In this document: positions 6,482 to 33,266 of the stretch, one piece after another
How the letters are laid out: the number at the start of each line of letters is the position of its first letter
Numbering within the stretch: the stretch's first letter is position 1
Assembly (NCBI RefSeq): GCF_004116465.1
Contig: NZ_PDJV01000001.1
Location: 124,001 to 188,000, forward strand
DNA from: Arcobacter sp. F2176
GTDB taxonomy: Bacteria > Campylobacterota > Campylobacteria > Campylobacterales > Arcobacteraceae
Direction of reading: 5' to 3'
Length of the DNA: 64,000 nt
Program-made: the position numbers and the translations under genes
Notes under the pieces: model-generated
Seen by the model: the letters and a program-made list of their open reading frames with translations, nothing else
Told to the model about the DNA's origin: nothing
The model's database searches: none

Positions 6482-7723
6482 TTATTGGTCTTTGTACTTT
6501 TTTATAAAGAATACTGCTAAAAGTTTAAATAATATGGGAAGAATAGAATAAAGCATTATAAGAGTATTTAAAGCTATGGTAGAGACATTATTTGCATCAA
6601 AACCAACTAATTCTAACACAATAAAAGTTATAAATACAGCTAAGGCTAAAGATAGTTTTGTAATCATATTCCAAAAACCAAAGAGTACACCTGATATTTG
6701 GTTGCCTAAGGTTTTTGATTTTTGAGCAATGTCAGATTGAATGGAAGCCGGTATTGCCATATCTGCACTTAGACTTATTCCTGTACAAAATGAGATTATT
6801 CCAAATAATATATAGTTTTGTTCTCCTAAAAATGGAACAAAAGAAAAAGATATAACTGCAAAAAGAATTGAACTTATCCAAACTTTTTGTTTATTGATTT
6901 TCTTAGATAAATATATCCAAAAAGGCAAAGCAATTACAGCTGATAAAAAATAAACTAATAAAAGAGCTCCTGTGTATTCTGGTGTTTTAAGTACTAATTG
7001 CACATAAAATAAAAACAAAGTTGCAGGAATAGCATTTGCGAGATTATTTAATATAAAAGCTATAAAAATATTATTTGCTTTTGAAAAGTCTTTTTTAAAC
7101 TTTTTCAAACTATCAAAAAAAGCTAAGGTTTCAATTTTATCTTTATCTTCTTTTATAGATAAAATAAAAATTAATATAACTATAGGAAAAACTATTACAG
7201 AACTTTTTAAAAGTAAATTCAAACTCTGCTTTGCATCTTCAGAAATACTATAAATGTAAGGTAATAGAAGTGCTATAACTACACCAACTATTGTAAAAAC
7301 TTCCCTTGAAAATGATAGTTTTGTATTATCATAATAATCTTTTCCAAGTTCTGCATTTAAAGCAAGATAGGGAATATTTATAAAACTCCAAGAGATATAA
7401 GTTAAAGCAGAAAAAAGAAATAACCACCAAAAGGAGTTTGAACTTGCAGGATGAATAAGAAAATAAAAACTGAAAAGTAAAACTATACTTCCTCCTGCTA
7501 TTAAATAGCTTTTTTTTATTTTTTTATCACTAATAAGTCCAATAAAAGGATCACTAATCATATCAAGTAATCTTGATAAAAAAAGTGCAATACCCACAAG
7601 TGCAATATTCAATCCTACTTCATTTACATAAAAATTTGGTAAATAAATATATATAGGTAGTCCCAAAAAAGCTACTGGAATAGCTAGTATTCCATAAGCA
7701 ATCTTTTCAAATATTTTATTCAT
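6482..7723 (-). CDS. GPH-type (MFS_2) sugar/cation symporter-like transporter
   Basis: A 413-residue polytopic inner-membrane protein with about 12 hydrophobic helices. The segment LLDMISDPFIGLISDK matches the D..DP..G..SD signature of the glycoside-pentoside-hexuronide:cation symporter family. Genes of this class recur in Cfa-DUF1365-SDR clusters, where the cargo is unknown and need not be a sugar. Its start overlaps the stop of the NTF2-like gene (ATGA), so the SDR, NTF2-like and transporter genes form one translationally coupled unit. Confidence 0.87.
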   Translation of the reverse strand: MNKIFEKIAYGILAIPVAFLGLPIYIYLPNFYVNEVGLNIALVGIALFLSRLLDMISDPFIGLISDKKIKKSYLIAGGSIVLLFSFYFLIHPASSNSFWWLFLFSALTYISWSFINIPYLALNAELGKDYYDNTKLSFSREVFTIVGVVIALLLPYIYSISEDAKQSLNLLLKSSVIVFPIVILIFILSIKEDKDKIETLAFFDSLKKFKKDFSKANNIFIAFILNNLANAIPATLFLFYVQLVLKTPEYTGALLLVYFLSAVIALPFWIYLSKKINKQKVWISSILFAVISFSFVPFLGEQNYILFGIISFCTGISLSADMAIPASIQSDIAQKSKTLGNQISGVLFGFWNMITKLSLALAVFITFIVLELVGFDANNVSTIALNTLIMLYSILPILFKLLAVFFIKKYKDQ

Positions 7724-8154
7724 GCTTTTAGCTTATTTTTTATATATTTAATAATATATTTTAATAGCGGTATCTTTTCATAAATGTTTACTCCACTATC
7801 CCAATAATCAATATGTGAGATAACTTTACCTTTTGAAGAAAATTCAACTCTACTTACACCTATGAACAGTTCATATTCTTTACTTTCTCTTGAAGTTTTA
7901 TATTTAAAAATCCATCTAAGATATGCAATATTATCTTTTGTAATTATTTCAGTAACATTAAAACTTGGTTCTTCTAATGTTTGATACATATGATTAAAGA
8001 TTCTTATTAAAGAACTTAAATCATTTATTTTTTGAAAGGGATCTTCAAAATAGATATCTTCTGCAAATATAATTTTATAATCATTTATATCTAAATCTTT
8101 ATTCAAATTTTCAAAAAATAAAGCGTAATTTTGGGCATGTTGTTTATAATTCAT
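7720..8154 (-). CDS. NTF2-like (SnoaL-type) protein
   Basis: A 144-residue protein with the cone-shaped NTF2-like fold suggested by an N-terminal helix pair, EDIYFEDPFQKI, then alternating strands such as YLRWIFKYKT and GKVISHIDYWDSG. This superfamily includes isomerases, hydratases and pure ligand binders, so the activity cannot be named. It overlaps the SDR gene upstream and the transporter gene downstream by 4 bp each. The fixed pairing with an SDR suggests that both act on one small hydrophobic substrate. Confidence 0.82.
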   Translation of the reverse strand: MNYKQHAQNYALFFENLNKDLDINDYKIIFAEDIYFEDPFQKINDLSSLIRIFNHMYQTLEEPSFNVTEIITKDNIAYLRWIFKYKTSRESKEYELFIGVSRVEFSSKGKVISHIDYWDSGVNIYEKIPLLKYIIKYIKNKLKA

Positions 8155-8903
8155 TTTAATAACTTCTTATTTATTGCTAGTGATATTTTATAAGGTAACA
8201 TTGCCATTAATCTTAAAAATAAAGATATCTTAAAAGGAAATCTTATCTCAAAAGAGTATTTTTTATTTATTCCTTCATAAATATTCTTTGCAGCAACTTC
8301 ACTAGTAATTAAATCAGGCATATCAAAATCATTTTTTTTGGTTAATCTAGTTTTTACAAAACCATGATTGATAATTTGAACTTCAATATTTTTTACGATT
8401 AGTTCTGCTTGAATAGATTGGGCAAAGTTTACAAGAGCAGCTTTACTTGCACTATATCCTCCACCATAAGGAAGACCAAAATAACTTGATAAACTGGCAT
8501 TAAAAACCAATCGTCCATATCCTTGTTTTTCATAAAAAGGTATAAGGGTTGTAGTTACTCTTAATGCTCCTAGATAATTGATATTTGTCATATTTTCATA
8601 ATGTTTAATATTCCAATTTTCCATAGACATAACTTCATAAACAGCTGCATTAAAAATAGTAATATCAATTGTATCAAATATATTAAAAACTTTTTTTACA
8701 GATGATTCTACACTTTGTGTATTAGACACATCAATATTTAATAAATTTAATTTTTTTGGGTATTGTTTTTGTAAAGCTAGTAATTCTTTTGATGATTCTA
8801 TTGTTCTAGAAGAGGCTATTATCTTGTAATCTAGTTTTAAATATATATTTAAAAGATCTAATCCAATGCCACTACTAGAACCTATTATCCAAATATTTTT
8901 CAT
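8151..8903 (-). CDS. Short-chain dehydrogenase/reductase
   Basis: A 250-residue NAD(P)-dependent oxidoreductase of the classical SDR family. The nucleotide-binding motif is GSSSGIGLDL near residue 8, NAAVYE is the NAG-type motif, and the catalytic set is a Ser in FNASLSS with YSASKAA (Tyr and Lys). It is the first gene of the SDR-NTF2-transporter unit, with an AAGG eight bases before the ATG. The substrate is unknown. The context suggests a lipid-derived ketone or alcohol, which is inference. Confidence 0.92.
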   Translation of the reverse strand: MKNIWIIGSSSGIGLDLLNIYLKLDYKIIASSRTIESSKELLALQKQYPKKLNLLNIDVSNTQSVESSVKKVFNIFDTIDITIFNAAVYEVMSMENWNIKHYENMTNINYLGALRVTTTLIPFYEKQGYGRLVFNASLSSYFGLPYGGGYSASKAALVNFAQSIQAELIVKNIEVQIINHGFVKTRLTKKNDFDMPDLITSEVAAKNIYEGINKKYSFEIRFPFKISLFLRLMAMLPYKISLAINKKLLK

Positions 8904-20215: not shown

Positions 20216-20818
20216 TTAATTTTTCATCTCTTTTCTAATTCTTGATAAAGCAACATCCGTAATGCCTAAATAAGAAGCAATATGATAGTTTGCAACTGCA
20301 TTTTCAATCATAGAATAATCATTCAAAAACTTTTCATAACGCTCTCTTGCACTTAAAAGTAGAAAATCAGCCTCACGTCTCTCTTTTTTGATTACAAGAT
20401 TTTCGTATATTCTTAAAAGTAAATCATTCCATTGTTTATATTGCATACCTAGTTCTAAAAGTTTTTTATAGGGTATGTGTAAAGTTATAAAGTCACTAAG
20501 AACTTCCACACTAAAAGGAGAGGGAATTCCTTGTGATACTGAAGAAATACTACTTAATAGATGTCCTTGTTTTTCTGCAAAAGATTTATTGAACTCTTTA
20601 CCATCATCAGTAAGGTAATAATATCTAGCTAGTCCATTAATAAGAAAATAAAAATCATCAATATGGTCATCTACATAAAAAAGATGTTGACCTTTTTTTA
20701 ATGTTTTTGTTTTAAAATATTTTTTTGCTATTTCCCAATTTTCATCTGAAAGGGGAGATATATTATTTAATATTGGATATAAAATATCAAACTGTTTATC
20801 TTTATTCATTATTTTCAT
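20216..20818 (-). CDS. Crp/Fnr-family transcriptional regulator
   Basis: A 200-residue regulator. The N-terminal cyclic-nucleotide-binding-like beta barrel (about 20-130) includes LKKGQHLFYVDDHIDDFYFLINGL. The C-terminal winged helix ends in ASYLGITDVALSRIRKEM as the recognition region. There is no FNR cysteine cluster. It resembles the short Crp-like regulators that control a neighbouring gene, here possibly the GNAT and DUF711 genes. It overlaps the end of the receiver-PAS gene by 17 bp, or 8 bp if the second ATG is used. Confidence 0.88.
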   Translation of the reverse strand: MKIMNKDKQFDILYPILNNISPLSDENWEIAKKYFKTKTLKKGQHLFYVDDHIDDFYFLINGLARYYYLTDDGKEFNKSFAEKQGHLLSSISSVSQGIPSPFSVEVLSDFITLHIPYKKLLELGMQYKQWNDLLLRIYENLVIKKERREADFLLLSARERYEKFLNDYSMIENAVANYHIASYLGITDVALSRIRKEMKN

Positions 20819-22073
20819 TCTTAAATGTTTTAAGTTCCTCTTGTAAATTAGTCACTAAATCTAATAAAGATGCTATTCTTTTTTCATGATCTACTCTTTT
20901 TTTATCAAGAGCTTTTATTTGTTCTTCTTTGTATTGAATAATAGCTTTTAAATCTTCAAGTTCTTTTGTAATAGTTTTGTTATGATTTTTTATTATTAAT
21001 AGTTGTTTTGTCATTATGTCAAATTGTTTCTTTTTATCTTGTTTCATCATTAAATCCATTTTATTATATTCAATGTTTTGGGTTTCATAAATCTCCAGTT
21101 GTGATAAAAGATTTCGTATCTTATTTTCATAAGTAATAATTTTGTCTTTATAAAGTTTTGTATTATCATTACAACTAGTTGCTTTTGATAATATATCTTC
21201 TTTTTCTTTTTTATGGTTTGCAATCTCTTTTTTATATAAGGTCAATTGTTCTAAAAATTTTTTATTTTGTGCTCTTCTTTGGTTTTCTTCTTCTGTCACT
21301 AAAAACCGTATGCTAATAAATTGAGTAATTTCTTTACCTGCATCATCATAAATTGGAATTATTTTTGTATTTACAAAATATGTTTCATTGTCTTTAGATA
21401 GATGTTTTAGCGTTCCTTCCCATATTTTACCTTTTCTTGCTGTTTCCCATATCTCTTCGTATAAACTTGCTTGAACATCTGGATGTTTTAGAATACTATG
21501 ATTTTTACCTAATATTTCATCTTCTAGATATCCTGATATATCAATAAAAGCATCATTTACAAAGGTGATATTTCCATCAAAATCAGTTTTTACAACTATT
21601 GCTTCTTTATTTAAAACAGATAAGTAAGCTTCCATTTCTTTCTTTTGTAATTCAAAATTCTTTTTATAATATATTTCTTTACAAATTTTTTCTACACTTT
21701 TATCAATTATTGAAAAATCTAATGGTTTTAATAAGTAGGAACTTACATTTAAGTTTATTGCTTTAATCATCTGTTCAGATTCACTTCTTGCTGTTGTAAA
21801 AATAAAAGGAATATCTTTATTTAATTCTCTTATTTTTTCAAGAAGTTCTATGCCATCGATTTTAGGCATATTAATATCGCTAATAATTAAATCAAAAGGT
21901 TCTTTATCATTTGTAGCTTTAATAAAGGCATCATAGGCTTCAAAACCATTGCTACATAAGATTGATGTATCAAATTTTTTATTTAAATATTTTCCAAAAA
22001 TCATTCTTGCTTGGTCTTCATCTTCAACATATAAAACCTTTAATTTTTTGATAAAGTCTTTAATGTTTTCCAT
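20802..22073 (-). CDS. Response regulator with PAS domain and coiled-coil tail
   Basis: A 423-residue cytoplasmic protein. The receiver domain (1-125) has the acidic pair in YVEDED, the phosphoacceptor Asp in IISDINMPKIDG and the Lys in LLKPLD. A PAS/PAC domain (about 150-270) reads TDFDGNITFVNDAFIDISGY. The last 140 residues are charged coiled coil without an output domain I recognise. Its role could be scaffolding or binding a partner. It is divergent from the kinase operon starting at 22215, and these kinases are candidates for its partners. Confidence 0.9.
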   Translation of the reverse strand: MENIKDFIKKLKVLYVEDEDQARMIFGKYLNKKFDTSILCSNGFEAYDAFIKATNDKEPFDLIISDINMPKIDGIELLEKIRELNKDIPFIFTTARSESEQMIKAINLNVSSYLLKPLDFSIIDKSVEKICKEIYYKKNFELQKKEMEAYLSVLNKEAIVVKTDFDGNITFVNDAFIDISGYLEDEILGKNHSILKHPDVQASLYEEIWETARKGKIWEGTLKHLSKDNETYFVNTKIIPIYDDAGKEITQFISIRFLVTEEENQRRAQNKKFLEQLTLYKKEIANHKKEKEDILSKATSCNDNTKLYKDKIITYENKIRNLLSQLEIYETQNIEYNKMDLMMKQDKKKQFDIMTKQLLIIKNHNKTITKELEDLKAIIQYKEEQIKALDKKRVDHEKRIASLLDLVTNLQEELKTFKNENNE

Positions 22074-22214
22074 ATAGATATCCTTTTGTAATATAAAAGT
22101 TATTAATTTTATTATTCTTAAACTAAAAACTTGCTAATTTAAAATAATAATAATAAAATATAATGTCTTGTATTATAATGTATTTTACTATTAAATTTAA
22201 AATGTGAGTCAATA

Positions 22215-24152
22215 ATGTTAGAGTTCATAAAAAATTTTAAAAAAAGCATTGGGTATATTCTTATTAAAAAGGTATATCTTACATATTTTATTATCATGAT
22301 AATTTTCATGTTTTATCAAATATTCTCAGAATATGATAATAATAAAAAAGAGGCTTATAAACAATTTTATAAAGTAGAAAAAGTTTACAAAGATTTATTC
22401 TCAAAATATCATATTGATAAAGATAATTTTGCATTTGATGAAATAACAAAAACTATTTTTAAAACTAGTAATATTTCTGGACTTGTAGCAATTGATAGTT
22501 CAAAAAACTTTAAGTTCTTTAAAGGAGCTATTGGTACATCATTTACAAAAGATGTAAATGAAAAAAATAAAGATGTAAGCTTTTATGAAGATAATTATTT
22601 TTTTAAACATAGAATAAAAATTGATGTTTATGATAAAAAAGATTTAGAATTAATTCTATTTATCAAAAAAACTGATATTTATAACCTTGTTTGGGATACA
22701 GTATTTCTTATTTTATTAAATATGATTTTTGGAATGATTATTCTTTGGGTACTTTTTTCTATTTTTACTGCAAAATATTTAATAAAACCTTTAAATACAA
22801 TTATTGATGCTACAAATAAATTTGATATTGAAGAACATGAATTTATTGAAATAAACTTAGATGATTTACAAAATAATGAGTTTTATAAGCTTTCAAATGT
22901 ATTTAATAAAATGTCAAAAAGAATCAATGAAGCTTATATCAATATGGAACAGTTATCCATGATAAAAGAGATTCAAAAAAATAAGCTAGAAGATCAAAAA
23001 GCAGAATTAATCCAAGCAAATAAATCAAAAGATGATTTTTTGGCAAATATGAGCCATGAACTAAAAACACCATTAAACTCAATAAATGTAATTAGTGATG
23101 TAATGATGAGAAATAAAACAGAGAATTTAGATGAGAAACAAATCAAAAATATAGGAATAATAAATAAATGTGGGAAAGATTTATTATACTTAATAAATGA
23201 TGTATTAGATATTTCAAAACTAGAAGCAGGGCAAATAATACTTAATAATGATGCGATAAATATAAAAGATTTGATAATGAGTATTTATGATATGTTTTAT
23301 CCACAGACAAAAGCAAAAGAGATTGACTTTGTATTAAAAGTAGATGATAGTTTAGAGACAATGTATAGCGATGAAGATAGGATAAAACAGATAATAAAGA
23401 ATTTATTGAGTAATGCATTGAAGTTTACTGAAAGTGGTAAAATAAGTTTAATAGTAAAAGATGAAGATAAAGATATAAAAGTAATAGTAAAAGATGAAGG
23501 AATAGGAATACCAGAAGATAAATTAGAAAATATTTTTGATAGATTTAAACAAGTAGATGGAAGTACTACAAGGAAGTATGGAGGGACAGGATTAGGACTT
23601 GCTATATGTAAAGAACTGGCACATTTATTAAAAGGTGATATTACTGTTACTAGTGAACTTGGTAAAGGTTCTACTTTTGAGCTTATTATTTGCAAAAATA
23701 TTGATTTAATGAATACTTTAAACTTACTGGATATAAAAGATGAATCAACTCAAAGTACTAATTCAACATCAGTACTTAAAGAAATTGATGGAGAAAATAT
23801 ATTTATTAACTTTGATGATAGTGAAGATATAAAAAAAGAGTTAATTTTGGTTTATAATAATGAACCAATAAAATTCTTTAGTGTAATTATGGATTTAAAT
23901 AAATTATATGAAGTGAAACAAAGTGCCAATTTGTCAGAAATAAAGGAACTTTATAATAAAAAAACATCAAAAGTTATAGTTGATATTAGTAGTTTAAATT
24001 CTTATGAAGTAGATAATATTGTACAGACTTTTGCAGAGAATTTAATTTTAATATATAAAAATGAAATTGATTTAGAATTAAGTAAAAAAGTATACAAAGT
24101 TATTCAAGAACCTTTGAATTATGAAAAAATCATTAATATAAAAAAGAGTTAA
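22215..24152 (+). CDS. Membrane sensor histidine kinase, first of a duplicated pair
   Basis: A 645-residue kinase with two membrane helices (about 17-40 and 160-190) around a short periplasmic sensor, a HAMP-like linker, HisKA with MSHELKTPLNSIN and HATPase with KDEGIGIPEDK and GTGLGLAI. Residues 270-498 come from a stretch that looks identical in DNA to the next gene. The final 110 residues look like a worn receiver domain without a recognisable phosphoacceptor Asp, which is inference. It is followed after one base by the second kinase gene. Confidence 0.92.
   Translation: MLEFIKNFKKSIGYILIKKVYLTYFIIMIIFMFYQIFSEYDNNKKEAYKQFYKVEKVYKDLFSKYHIDKDNFAFDEITKTIFKTSNISGLVAIDSSKNFKFFKGAIGTSFTKDVNEKNKDVSFYEDNYFFKHRIKIDVYDKKDLELILFIKKTDIYNLVWDTVFLILLNMIFGMIILWVLFSIFTAKYLIKPLNTIIDATNKFDIEEHEFIEINLDDLQNNEFYKLSNVFNKMSKRINEAYINMEQLSMIKEIQKNKLEDQKAELIQANKSKDDFLANMSHELKTPLNSINVISDVMMRNKTENLDEKQIKNIGIINKCGKDLLYLINDVLDISKLEAGQIILNNDAINIKDLIMSIYDMFYPQTKAKEIDFVLKVDDSLETMYSDEDRIKQIIKNLLSNALKFTESGKISLIVKDEDKDIKVIVKDEGIGIPEDKLENIFDRFKQVDGSTTRKYGGTGLGLAICKELAHLLKGDITVTSELGKGSTFELIICKNIDLMNTLNLLDIKDESTQSTNSTSVLKEIDGENIFINFDDSEDIKKELILVYNNEPIKFFSVIMDLNKLYEVKQSANLSEIKELYNKKTSKVIVDISSLNSYEVDNIVQTFAENLILIYKNEIDLELSKKVYKVIQEPLNYEKIINIKKS
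23022..23710. repeat. 689-bp direct repeat, copy 1 (kinase core)
   Basis: By reading the two stretches side by side I find no mismatch between this segment and 25504-26192, including at third codon positions. It encodes the HisKA and HATPase domains. Similarity ends abruptly at both edges. Confidence 0.95.
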
Positions 24153-24153
24153 G

Positions 24154-26556
24154 ATGAGTAAGGAGATTAAACTTCAAAAGATATTGTCATCACATTTTTT
24201 AAAATTTTCTTTGATTCCTATAATTATAGTTGAAGTTACTTTATTAATATTGTATTTTTCTATCAATCAATATATTTCGATAAAAAATACTAATCTACTT
24301 TTAAATGAAGCCCAATTTCATAGTCATGAACTTTTAAAAAATGAAGCAAATTTTATAAATGATAAATTGTTAGAAGTTTCAAGATTAGCCCAAATATTGC
24401 AAAGAGAGCACGAAAAATTATTTCAAGATCCAAAAAAATTTATACTCCCAAATGGAGAACCTACTTTTGAAGTTGCTAGTAATGGAGTTTATTACAAAAC
24501 AAACCATATTGGTGCTAGTTTATATTATTCATCTAAAACAAAAATGACTAAAAAAACAAAATATAAAGCACTATTTACAGAATCTATGGATACCTCTTTA
24601 GAAAGTATAGTTAATTTTAATCCTAATATTGTAGCAGCTTATTTTAATAGTTGGGATAATATGAATCGACTTTATCCTTTCATAAATAAAGTTTATGAAC
24701 AATATGGTAATCATATACAAATGGAAGATTATAATTTTTATTATCTTGCAGATAATAAGCACAATCCTAGTCATAAACCTGTATGGACAACTCCTTATTT
24801 AGATCCAGCAGGTAATGGTTGGATGTTATCATGTATAGTTCCAATTTATAAAAATGATTTTTTAGAAGGAGTTACAGGATTAGATATAACAATTGATAGT
24901 TTTGTTAAGAACATATTAAATAGAAAGCTATCATATAATGCAAACTTGTTTTTGATGGATGAAAATGCAATGATAATAGCTATGTCAGAAAAAATAGAAA
25001 AACCTGAAGAATTTAATATACTTAAAAGTAAAAGTCCTTTTGCTGAACACTTTAAAAATCTTATTAAAAGTAATTTGAATAACTCTACATTAAATATTAA
25101 AGATAAAGAATACTTAACCTTAAAACAAGATATTAAAGAGACTAATTGGAAACTAATGATTTTAATAGATAAAGATGAAATATTTAGTTCTATTGTCTAT
25201 TTACAAAATTTATCTAATAAAATCGGATATATAACTATCATCATATTAGTGTTCTTATATATTATTTTCTTCTATTTTCTAATTAATAAAATAAATAAAT
25301 TTTCATACACAATAACTAAGCCTATAAAAAAATTGTCAAATCAAACTTCTCAAATAAAAACAACAAGTGCCAAAGTCAATTTAATTAGTACTAATATATT
25401 GGAGATACAACAACTAAACAATAACTTTGAAAGAATGATGAATGAGTTAAAGGAAAGAACAAATAAATTATATGAATCAAAAATACTTGCAGAAGAGTTA
25501 GCCAAATCAAAAGATGATTTTTTGGCAAATATGAGCCATGAACTAAAAACACCATTAAACTCAATAAATGTAATTAGTGATGTAATGATGAGAAATAAAA
25601 CAGAGAATTTAGATGAGAAACAAATCAAAAATATAGGAATAATAAATAAATGTGGGAAAGATTTATTATACTTAATAAATGATGTATTAGATATTTCAAA
25701 ACTAGAAGCAGGGCAAATAATACTTAATAATGATGCGATAAATATAAAAGATTTGATAATGAGTATTTATGATATGTTTTATCCACAGACAAAAGCAAAA
25801 GAGATTGACTTTGTATTAAAAGTAGATGATAGTTTAGAGACAATGTATAGCGATGAAGATAGGATAAAACAGATAATAAAGAATTTATTGAGTAATGCAT
25901 TGAAGTTTACTGAAAGTGGTAAAATAAGTTTAATAGTAAAAGATGAAGATAAAGATATAAAAGTAATAGTAAAAGATGAAGGAATAGGAATACCAGAAGA
26001 TAAATTAGAAAATATTTTTGATAGATTTAAACAAGTAGATGGAAGTACTACAAGGAAGTATGGAGGGACAGGATTAGGACTTGCTATATGTAAAGAACTG
26101 GCACATTTATTAAAAGGTGATATTACTGTTACTAGTGAACTTGGTAAAGGTTCTACTTTTGAGCTTATTATTTGCAAAAATATTGATTTAATCCAAGGTT
26201 TAGAAGTTTTAAGTTTAAGTACAGAAACTTCTAATTCAATAAAAGACACTTCTCCCAATGAAGAAATTTATATTCTAAATAGTAATCCAATTTTATTTTT
26301 TAAAATTATAAGTCAAATATCTTCAAAATATAATATAATTTATATTAAAGATTTAAAAGAGATTAATTTAAGTAAGGATACAAAAATAATTTTGGAAGCA
26401 TCTTCTTTAAAAGAAGAAGATATTATATATATAAAAGAGTATAAAATAAATAACTTAATTCTAATTACAGAAGGAAAGATAAATAAAGAGTTGGATGATT
26501 TAGTAATTTTGTCTATAGATAAATCGCTTGAAAATATTGATTACTCTTTAATTTAA
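24154..26556 (+). CDS. Membrane sensor histidine kinase with dCache-type sensor, second of the pair
   Basis: An 800-residue kinase with an N-terminal membrane helix (about 17-40), a large periplasmic double-Cache-like domain (about 45-345: WTTPYLDPAGNGWMLS and GVTGLDITID are typical) and a second helix (about 355-375). A linker follows, then the same HisKA/HATPase core as the preceding gene (residues 451-679). The last 110 residues again resemble a degenerate receiver. The sensor differs entirely from that of its neighbour, so the pair offers two inputs into one output core. Confidence 0.92.
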   Translation: MSKEIKLQKILSSHFLKFSLIPIIIVEVTLLILYFSINQYISIKNTNLLLNEAQFHSHELLKNEANFINDKLLEVSRLAQILQREHEKLFQDPKKFILPNGEPTFEVASNGVYYKTNHIGASLYYSSKTKMTKKTKYKALFTESMDTSLESIVNFNPNIVAAYFNSWDNMNRLYPFINKVYEQYGNHIQMEDYNFYYLADNKHNPSHKPVWTTPYLDPAGNGWMLSCIVPIYKNDFLEGVTGLDITIDSFVKNILNRKLSYNANLFLMDENAMIIAMSEKIEKPEEFNILKSKSPFAEHFKNLIKSNLNNSTLNIKDKEYLTLKQDIKETNWKLMILIDKDEIFSSIVYLQNLSNKIGYITIIILVFLYIIFFYFLINKINKFSYTITKPIKKLSNQTSQIKTTSAKVNLISTNILEIQQLNNNFERMMNELKERTNKLYESKILAEELAKSKDDFLANMSHELKTPLNSINVISDVMMRNKTENLDEKQIKNIGIINKCGKDLLYLINDVLDISKLEAGQIILNNDAINIKDLIMSIYDMFYPQTKAKEIDFVLKVDDSLETMYSDEDRIKQIIKNLLSNALKFTESGKISLIVKDEDKDIKVIVKDEGIGIPEDKLENIFDRFKQVDGSTTRKYGGTGLGLAICKELAHLLKGDITVTSELGKGSTFELIICKNIDLIQGLEVLSLSTETSNSIKDTSPNEEIYILNSNPILFFKIISQISSKYNIIYIKDLKEINLSKDTKIILEASSLKEEDIIYIKEYKINNLILITEGKINKELDDLVILSIDKSLENIDYSLI
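25504..26192. repeat. 689-bp direct repeat, copy 2 (kinase core)
   Basis: Second copy of the segment at 23022-23710, in the same orientation and offset by 2482 bp. It encodes residues 451-679 of this kinase. I see no differences from copy 1. Confidence 0.95.
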
Positions 26557-26569
26557 ATAAAAGGAAAAC

Positions 26570-27682
26570 ATGATGGAAAAGTTTAGTATTCTTATATTAG
26601 ATGATGTAGAAGAAAATATATATTCATTAAAACTTATGATAGAAGATAGCTTTGATACAGAAATTTATACTGCCTTAAATGCACAAGATGCAATTTCAAT
26701 ACTTATGAATAACAAAGTAGATCTTATACTAAGTGATATTCAAATGCCTGATGTAGATGGATTCCAATTTGTTGATTACATAAAAAGTTTAGAAATAACA
26801 AAAGATATTCCAGTTATTTTTATTACAGGAATTTATGATAAAGACTCATATCAAAAAAAAGGTTATGATTTAGGAGTTATTGAATATATTTCAAAACCAA
26901 TTGATAATGATCTATTAACATCAAAGTTAAAAGTATTTATAAAGATATTTGAAGAAAAAAAGAGTTCAAAAGAAGAGTTAGACCAAGCAAATAAACTTCT
27001 CGTTCATAATGCAAAAATGGCTAGTATGGGAGAAATGATTGGTGTTATATCACATCAATTAAAACAACCTTTAAATATTATGTCATTATATTGTAACGAT
27101 ATAAAATATTCATATGATACAGATGATTTAGATAGGGAAACAATAGATAAATTTGATAAAGATACAAAGCAACAAATTAAACATATGACAAATACAATTG
27201 ATAGTTTTCTAAACTTCTTTAACTCTGAAAAAAAACTCACAACAATACCTATAAAAAAAGCAATTGTTACTTTTATTGACTTAATGAAAGCTCAAATTAG
27301 AAAAAGTGGTATAGACTTAAAAGTTGACATTGAAGATGCTTATATAGTAGGTGTAGAGATGGAATTAGCACAAGTTTTTATAAATATTATTACTAATTCA
27401 ATTCAAGCATATAATGAAAGAGAGATAGAAAATAGGCCTATTGAAATAAAAGTATACAAAGAAAATGACAAAGTTATTTTGACAATTGGCGACTTTGCAG
27501 GTGGAATTGATGAAAATAATATGGAAAAACTTTTTGATCCATATTTTACTACAAAAAGTGATGGAACAGGGATTGGTCTTTATATGGTTAAATTAGTAAT
27601 AATAAATAGCTTTAAAGGTGAATTGAAAGTTGAGAATAGTGATAAAGGGCTTAAATTTATTATGACTTTCCCTTCAGCATAA
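26570..27682 (+). CDS. Receiver-histidine kinase hybrid
   Basis: A 370-residue cytoplasmic protein with an N-terminal receiver (1-120: LDDVEEN, phosphoacceptor in ILSDIQMPDVDG, Lys in ISKPID) fused to a kinase with the H-box SHQLKQPLNIM near 165 and HATPase motifs FAGGIDENN and GTGIGLYM. It lies 13 bp after the second kinase gene with AAAGGAAA before the start. It is the likely next step in a phosphorelay from the two membrane kinases. The order receiver-then-kinase is typical of relay intermediates. Confidence 0.91.
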   Translation: MMEKFSILILDDVEENIYSLKLMIEDSFDTEIYTALNAQDAISILMNNKVDLILSDIQMPDVDGFQFVDYIKSLEITKDIPVIFITGIYDKDSYQKKGYDLGVIEYISKPIDNDLLTSKLKVFIKIFEEKKSSKEELDQANKLLVHNAKMASMGEMIGVISHQLKQPLNIMSLYCNDIKYSYDTDDLDRETIDKFDKDTKQQIKHMTNTIDSFLNFFNSEKKLTTIPIKKAIVTFIDLMKAQIRKSGIDLKVDIEDAYIVGVEMELAQVFINIITNSIQAYNEREIENRPIEIKVYKENDKVILTIGDFAGGIDENNMEKLFDPYFTTKSDGTGIGLYMVKLVIINSFKGELKVENSDKGLKFIMTFPSA

Positions 27683-27703
27683 GAGTAAGAATAAACTTAC
27701 TCT
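27682..27703. terminator. Bidirectional hairpin between convergent genes
   Basis: A perfect 8-bp stem (AGAGTAAG with CTTACTCT) around a 6-nt loop, filling the 19-bp gap between two convergent stop codons and touching both. Confidence 0.65.
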
Positions 27704-28249: not shown

Positions 28250-28277
28250 AAAGCTAAATAAAAATTTATTTAGCTTT
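28250..28277 (-). terminator. Terminator hairpin of the M14/ATP-grasp operon
   Basis: A perfect 13-bp stem (28250-28262 with 28265-28277) with a 2-nt loop. The M14 stop codon at 28266-28268 lies inside the stem. It marks the end of the four-gene operon. Confidence 0.7.
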
Positions 28278-30854
28278 ATATTCTAAAATAACTGGTTCTG
28301 AGTAATTTGGAACATCATCATAAGTAAATATTGCATAATACTTATCAATATCAGTTGCTCCAAAATCATCTAAAGTATACTCATCAACCCCAGCATAAAG
28401 TTTTTGTCCATCTTGTGCAGATAAAGGTTTTCTAAAAGGATTTTTAATAACTTTTGCTCCTACAAAATCTGAATCTTTTGGATTATTCCAAGAGACTTTT
28501 ATTTTTCCATTTTCCATTGTTAATTGAGCATTTGTTACTTTTTCAACAGGAAATCTTCTTTTTGGTATATATTCAAGAATAAGTTTTGGACATAAAGTAC
28601 TATTATTACTTGCTTCCCATGAAACAGTTTTATCTTTTAATACTCTAAAGGCAGATGTTGGTTTTAATACAAAAGAGATGTCTGATTTAGTTTTTAATTT
28701 TTCGTTTAAAGTGATTTCAGAAAAAGAATCAAACATAAAGTATTGGGTTTGATTATTTTTAAGTTCAGTTGCACTTACATCATAACCAATATTTTGAATA
28801 ACTTCCCTAGATGTAATATTTCTATAACTTTTATTTATATCATCGTCTACAAACTCCAAATGGAACCTAATGTCATCTTTGATATAAATCTTTGTAGAGT
28901 TTAATTCAAAATAAGCTTTAGTAATCATTGTATCATTATAAGGAGGAAGAGATGAAAGATTAAATTGAAAGGTAGAATATATTTTATTTCCATTTTCATC
29001 AAAACCTGGAGCAATAACATCTTCTAATACTTCATTCTTACTTACTGTATAAATAGACTTTGGAAACAAAGCTATACTTGTAGGTTCAATAGTATAAGTT
29101 AATTCTAGTCTTGGTCTATATGTTAATCCAAAACCAAACTTTCCATATCCAATATCCCATTGCATCATCTGTTTATTTCGTCCAATTTTTAACTCTTTTG
29201 GACCTTCAACTCTTAAGATAATAGTATCATCTTTTATAGATTTTTTTAAATCATCACACTCTAAACCTGATAAATGCCAATTTCTCCAAATACCTTGTGT
29301 AAGTTGATGAGACTCAGTAGGGCGACCAATATATCTGATTATCTCCATATTATTTACATCTTCAAAATTTGTAATATCACCCATTGTATCTTGATTAACA
29401 AGTCCTACATTCCATTCACCATACTTTTCAATTGTAGTTGAAACTCTGTTTATAGGATATAGATTAAATGAAGCTAATTTTATAAGTGCATTTTGAGGAA
29501 GTGATTTTACATTTATAGAAATAATAGCATATGAAATACCTTTGTTTTCATCAATTCCTACAAATAAAGAATTGACACCAAAATGTTTAGGATTATTGTT
29601 TAAATTCTCTGCTACATAACCAGTACCTTTTGCATTAGCATAATAAGTTCTACTATACTCATCATATTCAACTAATGTTCTAATCTTAATTTGAGGATAA
29701 AAAGGTGACTTTTGATTTGTTTTTTTATTTACAACTCTAATGTTGTAATAATAATCTTTATTTGAAGCTAAATTTATATCGCTAAATTCTAAAGCTTGAG
29801 TTTTGGCAATTAAGTTAGAAGAGTTACAAAATTGTTTATCTTTTTGGCTTCTAAATATTTCAAAATATATATTTTTGTTTAATTTATAATTCCATTTTAA
29901 TGTTACATGATTTGAACCAATTTCACTAGCTTCAAAACTATCTACTCTTTTCATTAAAGATGCTTTATCATAATTATCTACTTCTTTTAAAGCATATATT
30001 AGTGCCGGAATATGTTCTCTTATATTTTCATTCATATCTTCCATATAATCACTAATATTTCTAGTTCCTACTTCCACAACTGAAGAGAGTATTCCTTGTG
30101 AATAATAAAATTCTCTTCCACTTCCTGATATCAATTTTGCAGGTGGTTTACCTTGATGTATACCATATTCCCGCCCTGATATCTTTCTAATCTCTTCAGC
30201 CATATTTGCACATAAAGTATTCATATCAATTGTATCAATTGTATCTTCATGTCTAAAGTCATGTGCTGGAAAGAAAACATTACCTTGACTGTGGTAATCT
30301 AAGGCAATAGTAATATTAGGATGAGATAAAACAAATTCTCTTAAACTTTGAGTTTCAGGCTCAGAAAAAGGTTCAGGACCTCCATATACATTTGAAGAGG
30401 TATTTGTAGATTTTACAAATCCAATAGGGAAGTTTCTATTTAAGTCAACTCCATATGTTCCATCTAAATTCTGTCTTCTATTCTTTCTCCAAAAAGAAAA
30501 ATGCTTTCTTGAATATTCATAACCATCAGGATTGGCACAAGGTACCATATAAATAGTACTTTCATTTAAATATGTCTGTAAAGTCGGATCGGTTTCCAAG
30601 TTTTTTAATATATAAGATGCAAACTCTATAGCTAACTCATGTCCAATCCACTCTCTAGCGTGAATTGTTCCTGTATAAAATAGGGCAGGTTTACTATTTG
30701 CAGTTTCAATATTTTTTGATATTGTTATTAAATTAATATTCCTTTTTTCCCAAGTTTGACCAATGGATTCTATTTTGAAATATTCTGGATATTTTGCTTC
30801 TAATTCTTTAAAAATTGTTGTTGAAGCCTCGTATGATCTGTATAATCTTTTCAA
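28266..30854 (-). CDS. M14 zinc carboxypeptidase with FN3-like and DNRLRE-like domains
   Basis: An 862-residue metallocarboxypeptidase. The M14 domain (about 1-290) has the zinc ligands H65 and E68 in HAREW and H188 in DYHSQG, the carboxylate-binding LNRNF at 138-142, and the catalytic Glu at 261 in VVEVGTR, so it should be active. FN3-like (about 300-395) and DNRLRE-like beta domains (about 400-770) follow, then a second FN3-like end. No signal peptide is visible, although such accessory domains usually belong to exported proteins. The start is a TTG with GGAGA eight bases upstream, 4 bp after the ATP-grasp/HhH gene. Last gene of the operon. Confidence 0.88.
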   Translation of the reverse strand: MKRLYRSYEASTTIFKELEAKYPEYFKIESIGQTWEKRNINLITISKNIETANSKPALFYTGTIHAREWIGHELAIEFASYILKNLETDPTLQTYLNESTIYMVPCANPDGYEYSRKHFSFWRKNRRQNLDGTYGVDLNRNFPIGFVKSTNTSSNVYGGPEPFSEPETQSLREFVLSHPNITIALDYHSQGNVFFPAHDFRHEDTIDTIDMNTLCANMAEEIRKISGREYGIHQGKPPAKLISGSGREFYYSQGILSSVVEVGTRNISDYMEDMNENIREHIPALIYALKEVDNYDKASLMKRVDSFEASEIGSNHVTLKWNYKLNKNIYFEIFRSQKDKQFCNSSNLIAKTQALEFSDINLASNKDYYYNIRVVNKKTNQKSPFYPQIKIRTLVEYDEYSRTYYANAKGTGYVAENLNNNPKHFGVNSLFVGIDENKGISYAIISINVKSLPQNALIKLASFNLYPINRVSTTIEKYGEWNVGLVNQDTMGDITNFEDVNNMEIIRYIGRPTESHQLTQGIWRNWHLSGLECDDLKKSIKDDTIILRVEGPKELKIGRNKQMMQWDIGYGKFGFGLTYRPRLELTYTIEPTSIALFPKSIYTVSKNEVLEDVIAPGFDENGNKIYSTFQFNLSSLPPYNDTMITKAYFELNSTKIYIKDDIRFHLEFVDDDINKSYRNITSREVIQNIGYDVSATELKNNQTQYFMFDSFSEITLNEKLKTKSDISFVLKPTSAFRVLKDKTVSWEASNNSTLCPKLILEYIPKRRFPVEKVTNAQLTMENGKIKVSWNNPKDSDFVGAKVIKNPFRKPLSAQDGQKLYAGVDEYTLDDFGATDIDKYYAIFTYDDVPNYSEPVILEYKAK

Positions 30855-30858
30855 AAAA

Positions 30859-32358
30859 TCATTCTCCTATTTTTAATCTAGACTTCAATTGACTAAATTT
30901 ATTTTTCCCAATACCTTCTAGCTCTTTTAATTCATTGATATCTTTTAAACTTGTCACTTTTTTTCTATAATCAAGAATAATTTTTGCAAGTTTTGGCCCA
31001 ATTCCATTTATTTTTTTTAGAATCTCTATAGTAGCAGTATTAATATCTATTCTCATATCATCGATACTTTCATCCCAAGATTTTAACATCTGAGAATCTA
31101 TTGATTCTAATTCAAGTAAATCAGAACTATCAGTGATAATATTTTCTTCTAAATACTCTTTTATTTCTATAGCCAAATCCTCTTCCATCCCATACAAAGA
31201 CATTAAATCAGTTAAAGTAGCTTCATTTAAATTTATTCTTTTCTTTTCATATTCATCTTCAGTTTTTTTACTATTTTTAGATTGATTAGCATTTTTATCA
31301 GGTGCAATTGAATCTGGAACATCCCCATTATTACTTATTTCAGTCAAAGACATATCAAAATTATCTTTTGTATCATTTAGATAATATTCTCCATCAAAGC
31401 TTGGTTTATATTTACTAAATCCAATGTTTCTCATAGTTCGTAATAAAGAGGAATCAATTTTTCCTAATTCTTCCCATGAAAATAATGGAACATGAGGTTT
31501 TTTAAATCTTCCTTTTGAAAAATCCCACATCAAATATTGACAAATCCAATCTCTTATATAAGGAAATGCTGCAAATGCTGTCGCACACTCTAAAATATAT
31601 GCTTTTCCAGTTTTTGCACTAATTGCAATATCGCAAGCCCAGTATTCTGCTTTTGCAGCTTTACTTGCTTTTACAGCAAGTTCTAGAGCATTCATAGGGA
31701 TATTTTCATAAGACATCGAACCTCCTTGTGAAGTATTTGTTATCCATTGATTTTTACCTGAATATCTCCAAAAGGCACAAATTGGCTTATGCCCAATAAG
31801 CATTACTCTTATATCTCCAGAATCCTTTAAATCAATAGCATTTTGAGTATAAATTGGGTTATATTTTTTTTCATCTAAAAGTTTTTTTGCATCTTTAAAA
31901 CTATCTGCTTTATGGACAAAATAACCACCATAATTTGATGGACCATAACTTCTTTTTATGATTTGAGGATAAGTTGCTTTATTTTTTAAATATTCATAAC
32001 CTTCATCTTTATCATAAAAGATTTTTGTTTTAGGAATAGAAATTTTATACTTTTTACAAAAGAGGGTAACATTCTCTTTTGATCTATTTGAAAATTGTGT
32101 TTCAATTGAAGGTACAAATCTCACATCGGGGAGTTCTTTTGATATTTGAACAAAAGTCTCATAAGCAGTTGCAGGAATATTACCTATTAATATTTTAATT
32201 TTTTTTCTTTTGATTTCTTTTATGAACCTTGCTTTATCATTTTTCCAATGATAAGTAACAGTTTCAATTTTATCAGGCCATCCTTTAAAATTTGATTTAT
32301 CAAAAAACCTCATTACATAATCAAGATATAATAATCCTATTTTTGGCAATTTTTTCAT
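30859..32358 (-). CDS. ATP-grasp (RimK-like) ligase fused to tandem helix-hairpin-helix units
   Basis: A 499-residue protein in two parts. Residues 1-300 are an ATP-grasp ligase: IIKRSYGPSNYGGYFV is the nucleotide-binding loop, NTSQGGSMS is a RimK-type motif, and ACDIAISAKTGKAYILECA carries the metal-binding acidic residues. A low-complexity linker rich in Asn, Lys and Asp (about 330-372) leads to two ComEA-like HhH units (375-435 and 436-499) with INLNEAT and INTATIEILKKINGIGPK. ATP-grasp ligases join a carboxylate to an amine. HhH units usually bind DNA. It overlaps the first ATP-grasp gene by 4 bp. Substrate unknown. Confidence 0.87.
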   Translation of the reverse strand: MKKLPKIGLLYLDYVMRFFDKSNFKGWPDKIETVTYHWKNDKARFIKEIKRKKIKILIGNIPATAYETFVQISKELPDVRFVPSIETQFSNRSKENVTLFCKKYKISIPKTKIFYDKDEGYEYLKNKATYPQIIKRSYGPSNYGGYFVHKADSFKDAKKLLDEKKYNPIYTQNAIDLKDSGDIRVMLIGHKPICAFWRYSGKNQWITNTSQGGSMSYENIPMNALELAVKASKAAKAEYWACDIAISAKTGKAYILECATAFAAFPYIRDWICQYLMWDFSKGRFKKPHVPLFSWEELGKIDSSLLRTMRNIGFSKYKPSFDGEYYLNDTKDNFDMSLTEISNNGDVPDSIAPDKNANQSKNSKKTEDEYEKKRINLNEATLTDLMSLYGMEEDLAIEIKEYLEENIITDSSDLLELESIDSQMLKSWDESIDDMRIDINTATIEILKKINGIGPKLAKIILDYRKKVTSLKDINELKELEGIGKNKFSQLKSRLKIGE

Positions 32359-33266
32359 TTTTTATCCCCTTTTTTAGTTTTTCTATCAATTAAATCTACA
32401 ATCAAATCTATTTTTTTATCATTGAAATCTAACCCTAATTTTTCTTGTTCTGGTGTTGCAAAAGCAGGTATTCCATTTACTTCTAAAACAACAAATTCTT
32501 CTTTTTTTCTATCATAAATTATATCAACACCTGCAATATCAAGTCCTGTAACTTTAGCTGCTTTTAGTGCCAAATTGATTACATCATCATTTGGTTCTCT
32601 TAGAAATATACTTCCACCGCTTGTGACATTTGTTCTCCAATCATTCCCACCTGCTTTTCTACCATAACATCCTACAAATTGTCCATCAACAATATCAATT
32701 CTATAATCAGTATTATCATATTCAATAAACTTTTCAACATAAAAGTATCTTAAATCCATTTGATTTAAAAAAGGAATAAGCATATCTAATGTTTCTTCAT
32801 TTTCTATTTTAGTAAGACCAACTCCACCCCAACCATCAGTTGGTTTATAAACCATTTTTGACCATTTTTTCATAATAGTATTTAAATGATGAGTATCATC
32901 CCTATGACAAAGTTTATAATCTGCAGTTTTTACACCATTTGTTCTTAACAAAAATGATGTATGAAACTTATCTTCTGTTAATTCAAAAGAATCATAATTA
33001 TTAATCATAGGAATAACTCTATTTAAGGCTTTATACAAATACATTTGATATTGGGTTTGTTCTCCAGCATTATATGAAAAAAACAAGTCAAGTTTATCTA
33101 ATTTCATTTTATCATAAACAATATGACCATTTTTTGCAATTGCATTTCGCAAATTTAAATTAGAAATTGTTTCTATATTTCTCTCTTTTAATTTTTCTAT
33201 CATTTTTGTTTCTATAACATCTCCACCACCATTTTGATAAAGCCACATACCTATTTTTCTATCCAT
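32355..33266 (-). CDS. RimK-like ATP-grasp amino acid ligase
   Basis: A 303-residue ATP-grasp enzyme that should form an amide bond between a carboxylate and an amino acid using ATP. Typical motifs are KPTDGWGGVGL (ATP loop), DYRIDIVDGQFVG, NDWRTNVTSGGS and VDIIYDRKKEEFVVLEVNG, where the acidic residues and Asn bind Mg-ATP. It resembles RimK, LysX and the cofactor F420/tetrahydrosarcinapterin ligases, but no such pathway is present nearby. It lies 11 bp after the M20 peptidase gene and overlaps the second ATP-grasp gene by 4 bp. Confidence 0.88.
   Translation of the reverse strand: MDRKIGMWLYQNGGGDVIETKMIEKLKERNIETISNLNLRNAIAKNGHIVYDKMKLDKLDLFFSYNAGEQTQYQMYLYKALNRVIPMINNYDSFELTEDKFHTSFLLRTNGVKTADYKLCHRDDTHHLNTIMKKWSKMVYKPTDGWGGVGLTKIENEETLDMLIPFLNQMDLRYFYVEKFIEYDNTDYRIDIVDGQFVGCYGRKAGGNDWRTNVTSGGSIFLREPNDDVINLALKAAKVTGLDIAGVDIIYDRKKEEFVVLEVNGIPAFATPEQEKLGLDFNDKKIDLIVDLIDRKTKKGDKK

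Follow-up and report, generated by a model that had tools for sequence, protein, structure and literature searches.

In a 64,000-nucleotide stretch of contig NZ_PDJV01000001.1 of Arcobacter sp. F2176 (hereafter, the window; the genome is referred to as G000), two sensor histidine kinase genes, HK1 (22215..24152, plus strand; 645 aa, membrane protein) and HK2 (24154..26556, plus strand; 800 aa, with a dCache-type periplasmic sensor), share a kinase core that is identical in DNA. As the best explanation, which we consider probable, we propose that the core of HK1 was recently overwritten by that of HK2 through gene conversion and that the two kinases act on a shared output; recent conversion in itself is well supported. 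HK1 consists of an unclassified short sensor (aa 1-270), the kinase core (aa 271-495) and a degenerate receiver tail (aa 496-645), and HK2 consists of the sensor (aa 1-451), the same core (aa 452-676) and a degenerate receiver tail.

The two copies, 23022..23710 in HK1 and 25504..26192 in HK2 (both plus strand), form a maximal exact match with an offset of 2482 and 0 mismatches across 689 bp, exactly the identity, silent sites included, that the initial annotation had described. The tract comprises 229 whole codons plus 2 nt, begins with KSKDDFLANMSHELKTP, finishes with ELIICKNIDL, and spans HisKA and HATPase_c (the DHp and catalytic domains) of an orthodox histidine kinase (Pfam HisKA, 6e-18; HATPase_c, 3e-31), with the motifs SHELKTP, NLLSNALKFT, DEGIGI and GTGLGL in the translation (phospho-acceptor His and N and G boxes present). 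At both ends, the identity drops from one base to the next to 12-25 of 50 positions, which is the background for DNA of 26% GC. The sensor parts and tails had been described as differing almost completely; this holds for the tails as DNA, but the tail proteins are homologous (28% over 127 aa, E 4e-4). Because the silent sites match too, chance and purifying selection were ruled out as sources of the core identity. No further repeated 40-mer was found on either strand of the window besides the core repeat, and neither a third core copy nor a mobile cassette was found genome-wide in G000 (98 contigs, 3.27 Mb), where the next match was 97 bp at 72%.

The age of the identity was estimated from silent sites. 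The 225 codons and 56 fourfold degenerate sites compared between the HK1 and HK2 cores are all identical, as against differences at 256 of 1533 conserved codons (17%) and 111 of 509 fourfold sites in five flanking genes compared between G000 and G001, a genome of the same genus. At the G000-G001 rate, the probability of zero change in the core is ~1e-18, and the 95% bound places the homogenisation within the last ~8% of the time since the G000-G001 split, a relative date that assumes similar silent rates. Thus, the split from the nearest relative compared long predates the homogenisation; both HK1 and HK2 are missing from the same-genus genomes G001 and G002. Among 76 within-genome pairs of the kinase family, the HK1/HK2 pair is 100% identical, and the other 75 reach at most 78.5% in nucleotides, with a longest exact run of 48 nt; therefore, one recent local event, and not routine upkeep of the family, is indicated, and lineage-wide concerted evolution or recurrent homogenisation was rejected. 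Note that the runner-up, a near-tandem pair in G123 (L226:3260-5098 and 7007-8578) with cores 78.5% identical in DNA, could reflect an older or partial homogenisation.

Each kinase has orthologues of its own. Orthologues of HK2 occur in ~20 Arcobacteraceae genomes (sensor identity, 58-67%), where they are mostly solitary and in varied contexts, and a contig search with the HK2 sensor gave two loci only, in an Aliarcobacter metagenome-assembled genome and in Oceanobacter. Full-length orthologues of HK1 (50-51% over 643-645 aa, covering sensor, core and tail) occur in G104 and G105, between the orthologues of two neighbouring regulators of the window, RR-HK and RR-PAS (see below), and further ones, by a sensor identity of 44-46%, in G099, G101 and G103 (five genomes in all). 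The HK1 and HK2 sensors are unrelated to each other. Therefore, the identity arose when HK1 and HK2 were already separate genes, each with a core of its own, and these independent orthologues show the two, as far as gene comparison reaches, to be sensor kinases of one Arcobacteraceae subfamily that separated long ago and are arranged head to tail. This agrees with the initial annotation in its preference for recent gene conversion over old duplication.

In the core DNA tree, the window core fell with the HK2 orthologues (support, 95/91), which makes 25504..26192 the likely donor copy, whereas the HK1 sensor fell with the HK1 orthologues; this apparent conflict would fit an HK2 core overwriting the HK1 core. 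When the window core was forced to group with the HK1 orthologues, the approximately unbiased (AU) test gave p values of 0.046 (DNA), 0.054 (protein) and 0.074 (codon positions 1+2), at the border of rejection in each case. A mosaic core, part HK1-like and part HK2-like, was also considered, and the sliding identities were without a clear switch. We suppose that a copy of the HK2 core replaced the HK1 core by intragenic gene conversion, probably as a single event of RecA-type recombination between the homologous cores, and that the tract would have ended where usable homology stops, with the coiled linker as its upstream limit and the diverged pseudo-receiver tail as its downstream limit. The repeat would in turn expose the locus to the 2482-bp deletion pointed out earlier, which would fuse the first sensor to the second tail in frame and give a predicted HK1-sensor/HK2-tail kinase of 619 aa; as judged from the arrangement of the repeats, this risk of deletion is structurally sound.

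For the output, the flanking regulators were considered. RR-HK (26570..27682, plus strand) is a REC domain fused to a HisKA/HATPase kinase (Pfam; Rec-controlled kinase type) and the proposed shared partner of HK1 and HK2; RR-PAS (20802..22073, minus strand) is a response regulator with REC and PAS domains (Pfam Response_reg, 5.9e-21; PAS_9, 2.9e-15) that retains the catalytic receiver residues in the window. Among 104 genomes of the family, the kinase subfamily (called at E <= 1e-60) was found in 50 and RR-HK (called at E <= 1e-75) in 45, and all 45 lay among the 50 kinase-bearing genomes (Fisher test, 3e-24, a value that ignores phylogeny and overstates independence); of the five kinase-bearing exceptions, at least G122 encodes, next to its kinases, a relative of RR-HK that falls below the cut-off. 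Of 58 RR-HK genes, 52 are located <=3.5 kb from such a kinase, and the genomes carry 1-4 such kinases but mostly one RR-HK. Inside the genus g11, RR-HK and the kinase core have identical presence and absence.

The genes are also absent jointly. From G001, a block corresponding to 20814..27702, with all four genes (RR-PAS, HK1, HK2 and RR-HK), is missing, and the junction falls in the 5' end of the adjacent regulator gene; from G002, the block 22084-27696 (HK1, HK2 and RR-HK) is missing. At the G001 junction (L237:2201-2217), the flanking alignments overlap by 17 nt and the start of a Crp-like gene is trimmed, suggesting a deletion between short imperfect repeats. In G002, a relic of RR-PAS (L238:2339-3620) adjoins the site of the missing HK1-HK2-RR-HK, and its reading frame is interrupted by TAG at codon 22, Asn stands where the phospho-Asp is expected, and the acidic pair ED has become EN. 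Horizontal insertion of the whole block was disfavoured, as this relic and the grouping of RR-PAS, HK1 and RR-HK in G104 and G105 favour loss. A single pathway comprising HK1 and HK2 with RR-HK and RR-PAS is indicated by the joint absence and by the decayed receiver pocket, and the proposal of two inputs and one output for HK1 and HK2 has good indirect support from such comparisons of genes. The dCache ligand sensor of HK2 and the second sensor of HK1 would pass phosphate, by way of their identical transmitters, to one common receiver, for which the REC domain of RR-HK is the most likely candidate and that of RR-PAS perhaps another, and OR-type integration of the two inputs would result.

The identity had been said at the outset to keep both inputs wired to one output. 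A shared output is borne out indirectly by synteny, co-occurrence and joint absence, but "keeps" is too strong, since the relatives are not homogenised (best, 78.5%). The same fact, which gives no sign of selection maintaining the identity, would agree with a neutral conversion and an identity without meaning for signalling, HK1 and HK2 then acting through other partners or on outputs of their own; we regard this as doubtful, because identical DHp domains should share their intrinsic receiver preference (PMC2991266) and because the synteny, co-occurrence and joint absence with RR-HK speak for a common partner.

Several points weigh against a recent HK2-to-HK1 conversion with a shared output. 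The sharing would be guilt by association, drawn from gene neighbourhoods and genome contents, and the RR-PAS relic is a single case. The donor direction from HK2 to HK1 is moderately supported, and only so. The 100% identity of the cores is an upper estimate, as a few copy-specific single-nucleotide polymorphisms deep in the repeat could have been merged. The tail trees, finally, lean weakly to a swapped-tail arrangement (AU, 0.12-0.5), with the HK2 tail on a very long branch.

This last signal would be expected if a crossover within the core (by integration or unequal exchange) had brought HK1 and HK2 into their tandem arrangement with exchanged tails, and if the cores had been equalised in the same or a later step. 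The geometry is indeed that of a tandem direct repeat, the HK2 tail groups with the HK1 orthologues in the best tree, and the placement of the HK1 tail with the HK2 orthologues is 0.2 log units from the best tree. However, the tail signal is non-significant and involves the very long branch, a crossover between cores ~70% alike would yield two complementary hybrids and not identical copies, so that conversion is needed anyway, and the gap of 1 nt between the HK1 stop and the HK2 start resembles an established operon; we consider the crossover unlikely. The initial annotation had allowed for a recent domain transplant. Taken in the sense that the HK1 sensor was fused to a fresh HK2 core, this would make HK1 new as a gene. 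In the core tree, one core lineage does carry different sensor types, and sensor swapping thus happens in the family, but the full-length orthologues of HK1 possess a core and a tail, and a fresh copy would be expected to carry the tail of HK2, yet the tails are just 28% alike; a transplant seems quite improbable.

Regarding the assembly, the draft of G000 is in 98 contigs, of which a small one holds the only 16S copy, and it thus behaves like a short-read assembly. That two similar but non-identical cores were collapsed into one consensus, as the number of contigs and the one collapsed 16S might suggest, is the least probable of these accounts, because any usual k-mer would keep the copies apart in assembly if they differed by more than a few percent, the order of the repeat pieces is forced by the unique spacer (a direct repeat with such a spacer leaves one linear path), and the other paralogous cores of the family, which differ by >20%, assemble separately.

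The C-terminal tails of HK1 (23700..24149, plus strand) and HK2 (26182..26553, plus strand) were analyzed as a family. A profile built from 16 such tails matched PDB entries of receiver domains with a best E of 3e-4, and Pfam Response_reg matched 4 of the 16 members; the Pfam Response_reg search of the HK1 tail itself gave no match. The AlphaFold model of the HK1 tail, which is of moderate confidence (predicted local distance difference test, 62), contains five beta-alpha units that follow the order of a receiver, and a Foldseek search with this model gave nothing below 0.001, though receivers ranked high. The metal-binding acidic pair of the tails is NN or NS, that is, with Asn in place of acidic residues; the HK2 tail has Glu for the phospho-Asp, and the HK1 tail has Glu for the Lys. 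Judged by the acidic pair, phospho-Asp and Lys of a working receiver, neither tail classifies its protein as a hybrid histidine kinase, and both are best read as pseudo-receivers, which probably regulate and do not accept phosphate. Across the subfamily, the tail is a fast-evolving degenerate receiver that lies under Pfam detection in most members. The sensors vary as well: at L104:7360-12216 (G098), L228, L229 and L234, different types (dCache, HK1-type, and beside binding-protein-like genes) are found on the same core lineage, which suggests frequent swapping of putative sensors in the family. Adjoining the site that is empty in G001 and G002, the window encodes at 28266-33266 an M14-type peptidase with a long C-terminal part and two ATP-grasp-like proteins, one of which presumably has a ComEA/helix-hairpin-helix-like tail; the M14, ATP-grasp and ComEA labels were assigned by eye only.

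Taken together, the locus may belong to a modular Arcobacteraceae network, which we put forward tentatively and as somewhat less than an even chance: 1-4 membrane kinases, whose sensors are interchangeable, whose transmitter is constant and whose tail is a pseudo-receiver, would converge on one Rec-controlled kinase dedicated to them, and a sensor that drifts would now and then be reset onto this shared partner by conversion of its transmitter. Two sensors on an identical transmitter provide a natural experiment to separate input from output, and the family-wide link to RR-HK, together with a regulator without its phospho-aspartate where the kinases are gone (G002), defines a testable pathway, of which a description was not found in the open-access literature searched. 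In models of two-component evolution, the emphasis is on duplication and subsequent insulation (PMC9208753). HK1 and HK2 would be a clean natural case of the opposite, in which the specificity-determining half was overwritten by that of the neighbour and the input half was retained.

Among known systems, KinA-KinE of Bacillus combine several sensors and similar transmitters with different inputs onto one receiver, Spo0F. The convergence proposed for HK1 and HK2 is alike; the cores of KinA-KinE, however, have diverged, whereas those of HK1 and HK2 are identical in DNA. In the Lvr system of Leptospira, the hybrid kinase LvrA works with LvrB (PMC5863495, PMC13269768), described as a prototype of Rec-controlled kinases (PMC13269768), so that a kinase likewise stands alongside a soluble REC-HK protein. 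RR-HK aligns over nearly its full length with NCBIfam hybrid_RR_LvrB (NF047466), but its score of 93.9 bits against a cut-off of 500 makes it a non-member that resembles the family in architecture only, and the present locus differs in having two sensor kinases with degenerate receiver tails and in belonging to the phylum Campylobacterota. In the open-access literature, no report of conversion between histidine kinase cores was found; the possibility that two-component genes undergo conversion has been mentioned (PMC4603909), and gene conversion and concerted evolution of bacterial paralogues have been described in a paper in which kinases go unmentioned (PMC6053082). The HK1/HK2 pair resembles the latter cases in its silent-site identity with older flanks and differs from them in that the conversion is confined to one domain and to a single recent event. 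The nearest precedent comes from the same phylum: in Campylobacter jejuni, where recombination among the Tlps is known (PMC6433261), the dCache chemoreceptors Tlp2, Tlp3 and Tlp4 have sensors ~30% alike and identical signalling domains (PMC9769880), so that paralogous membrane receptors feed one pathway through identical domains, as proposed for HK1 and HK2. Unlike these chemotaxis receptors, HK1 and HK2 are histidine kinases encoded by adjacent genes in tandem, and a dCache sensor is recognisable in HK2 only; the event described here is of a known kind in a new setting.

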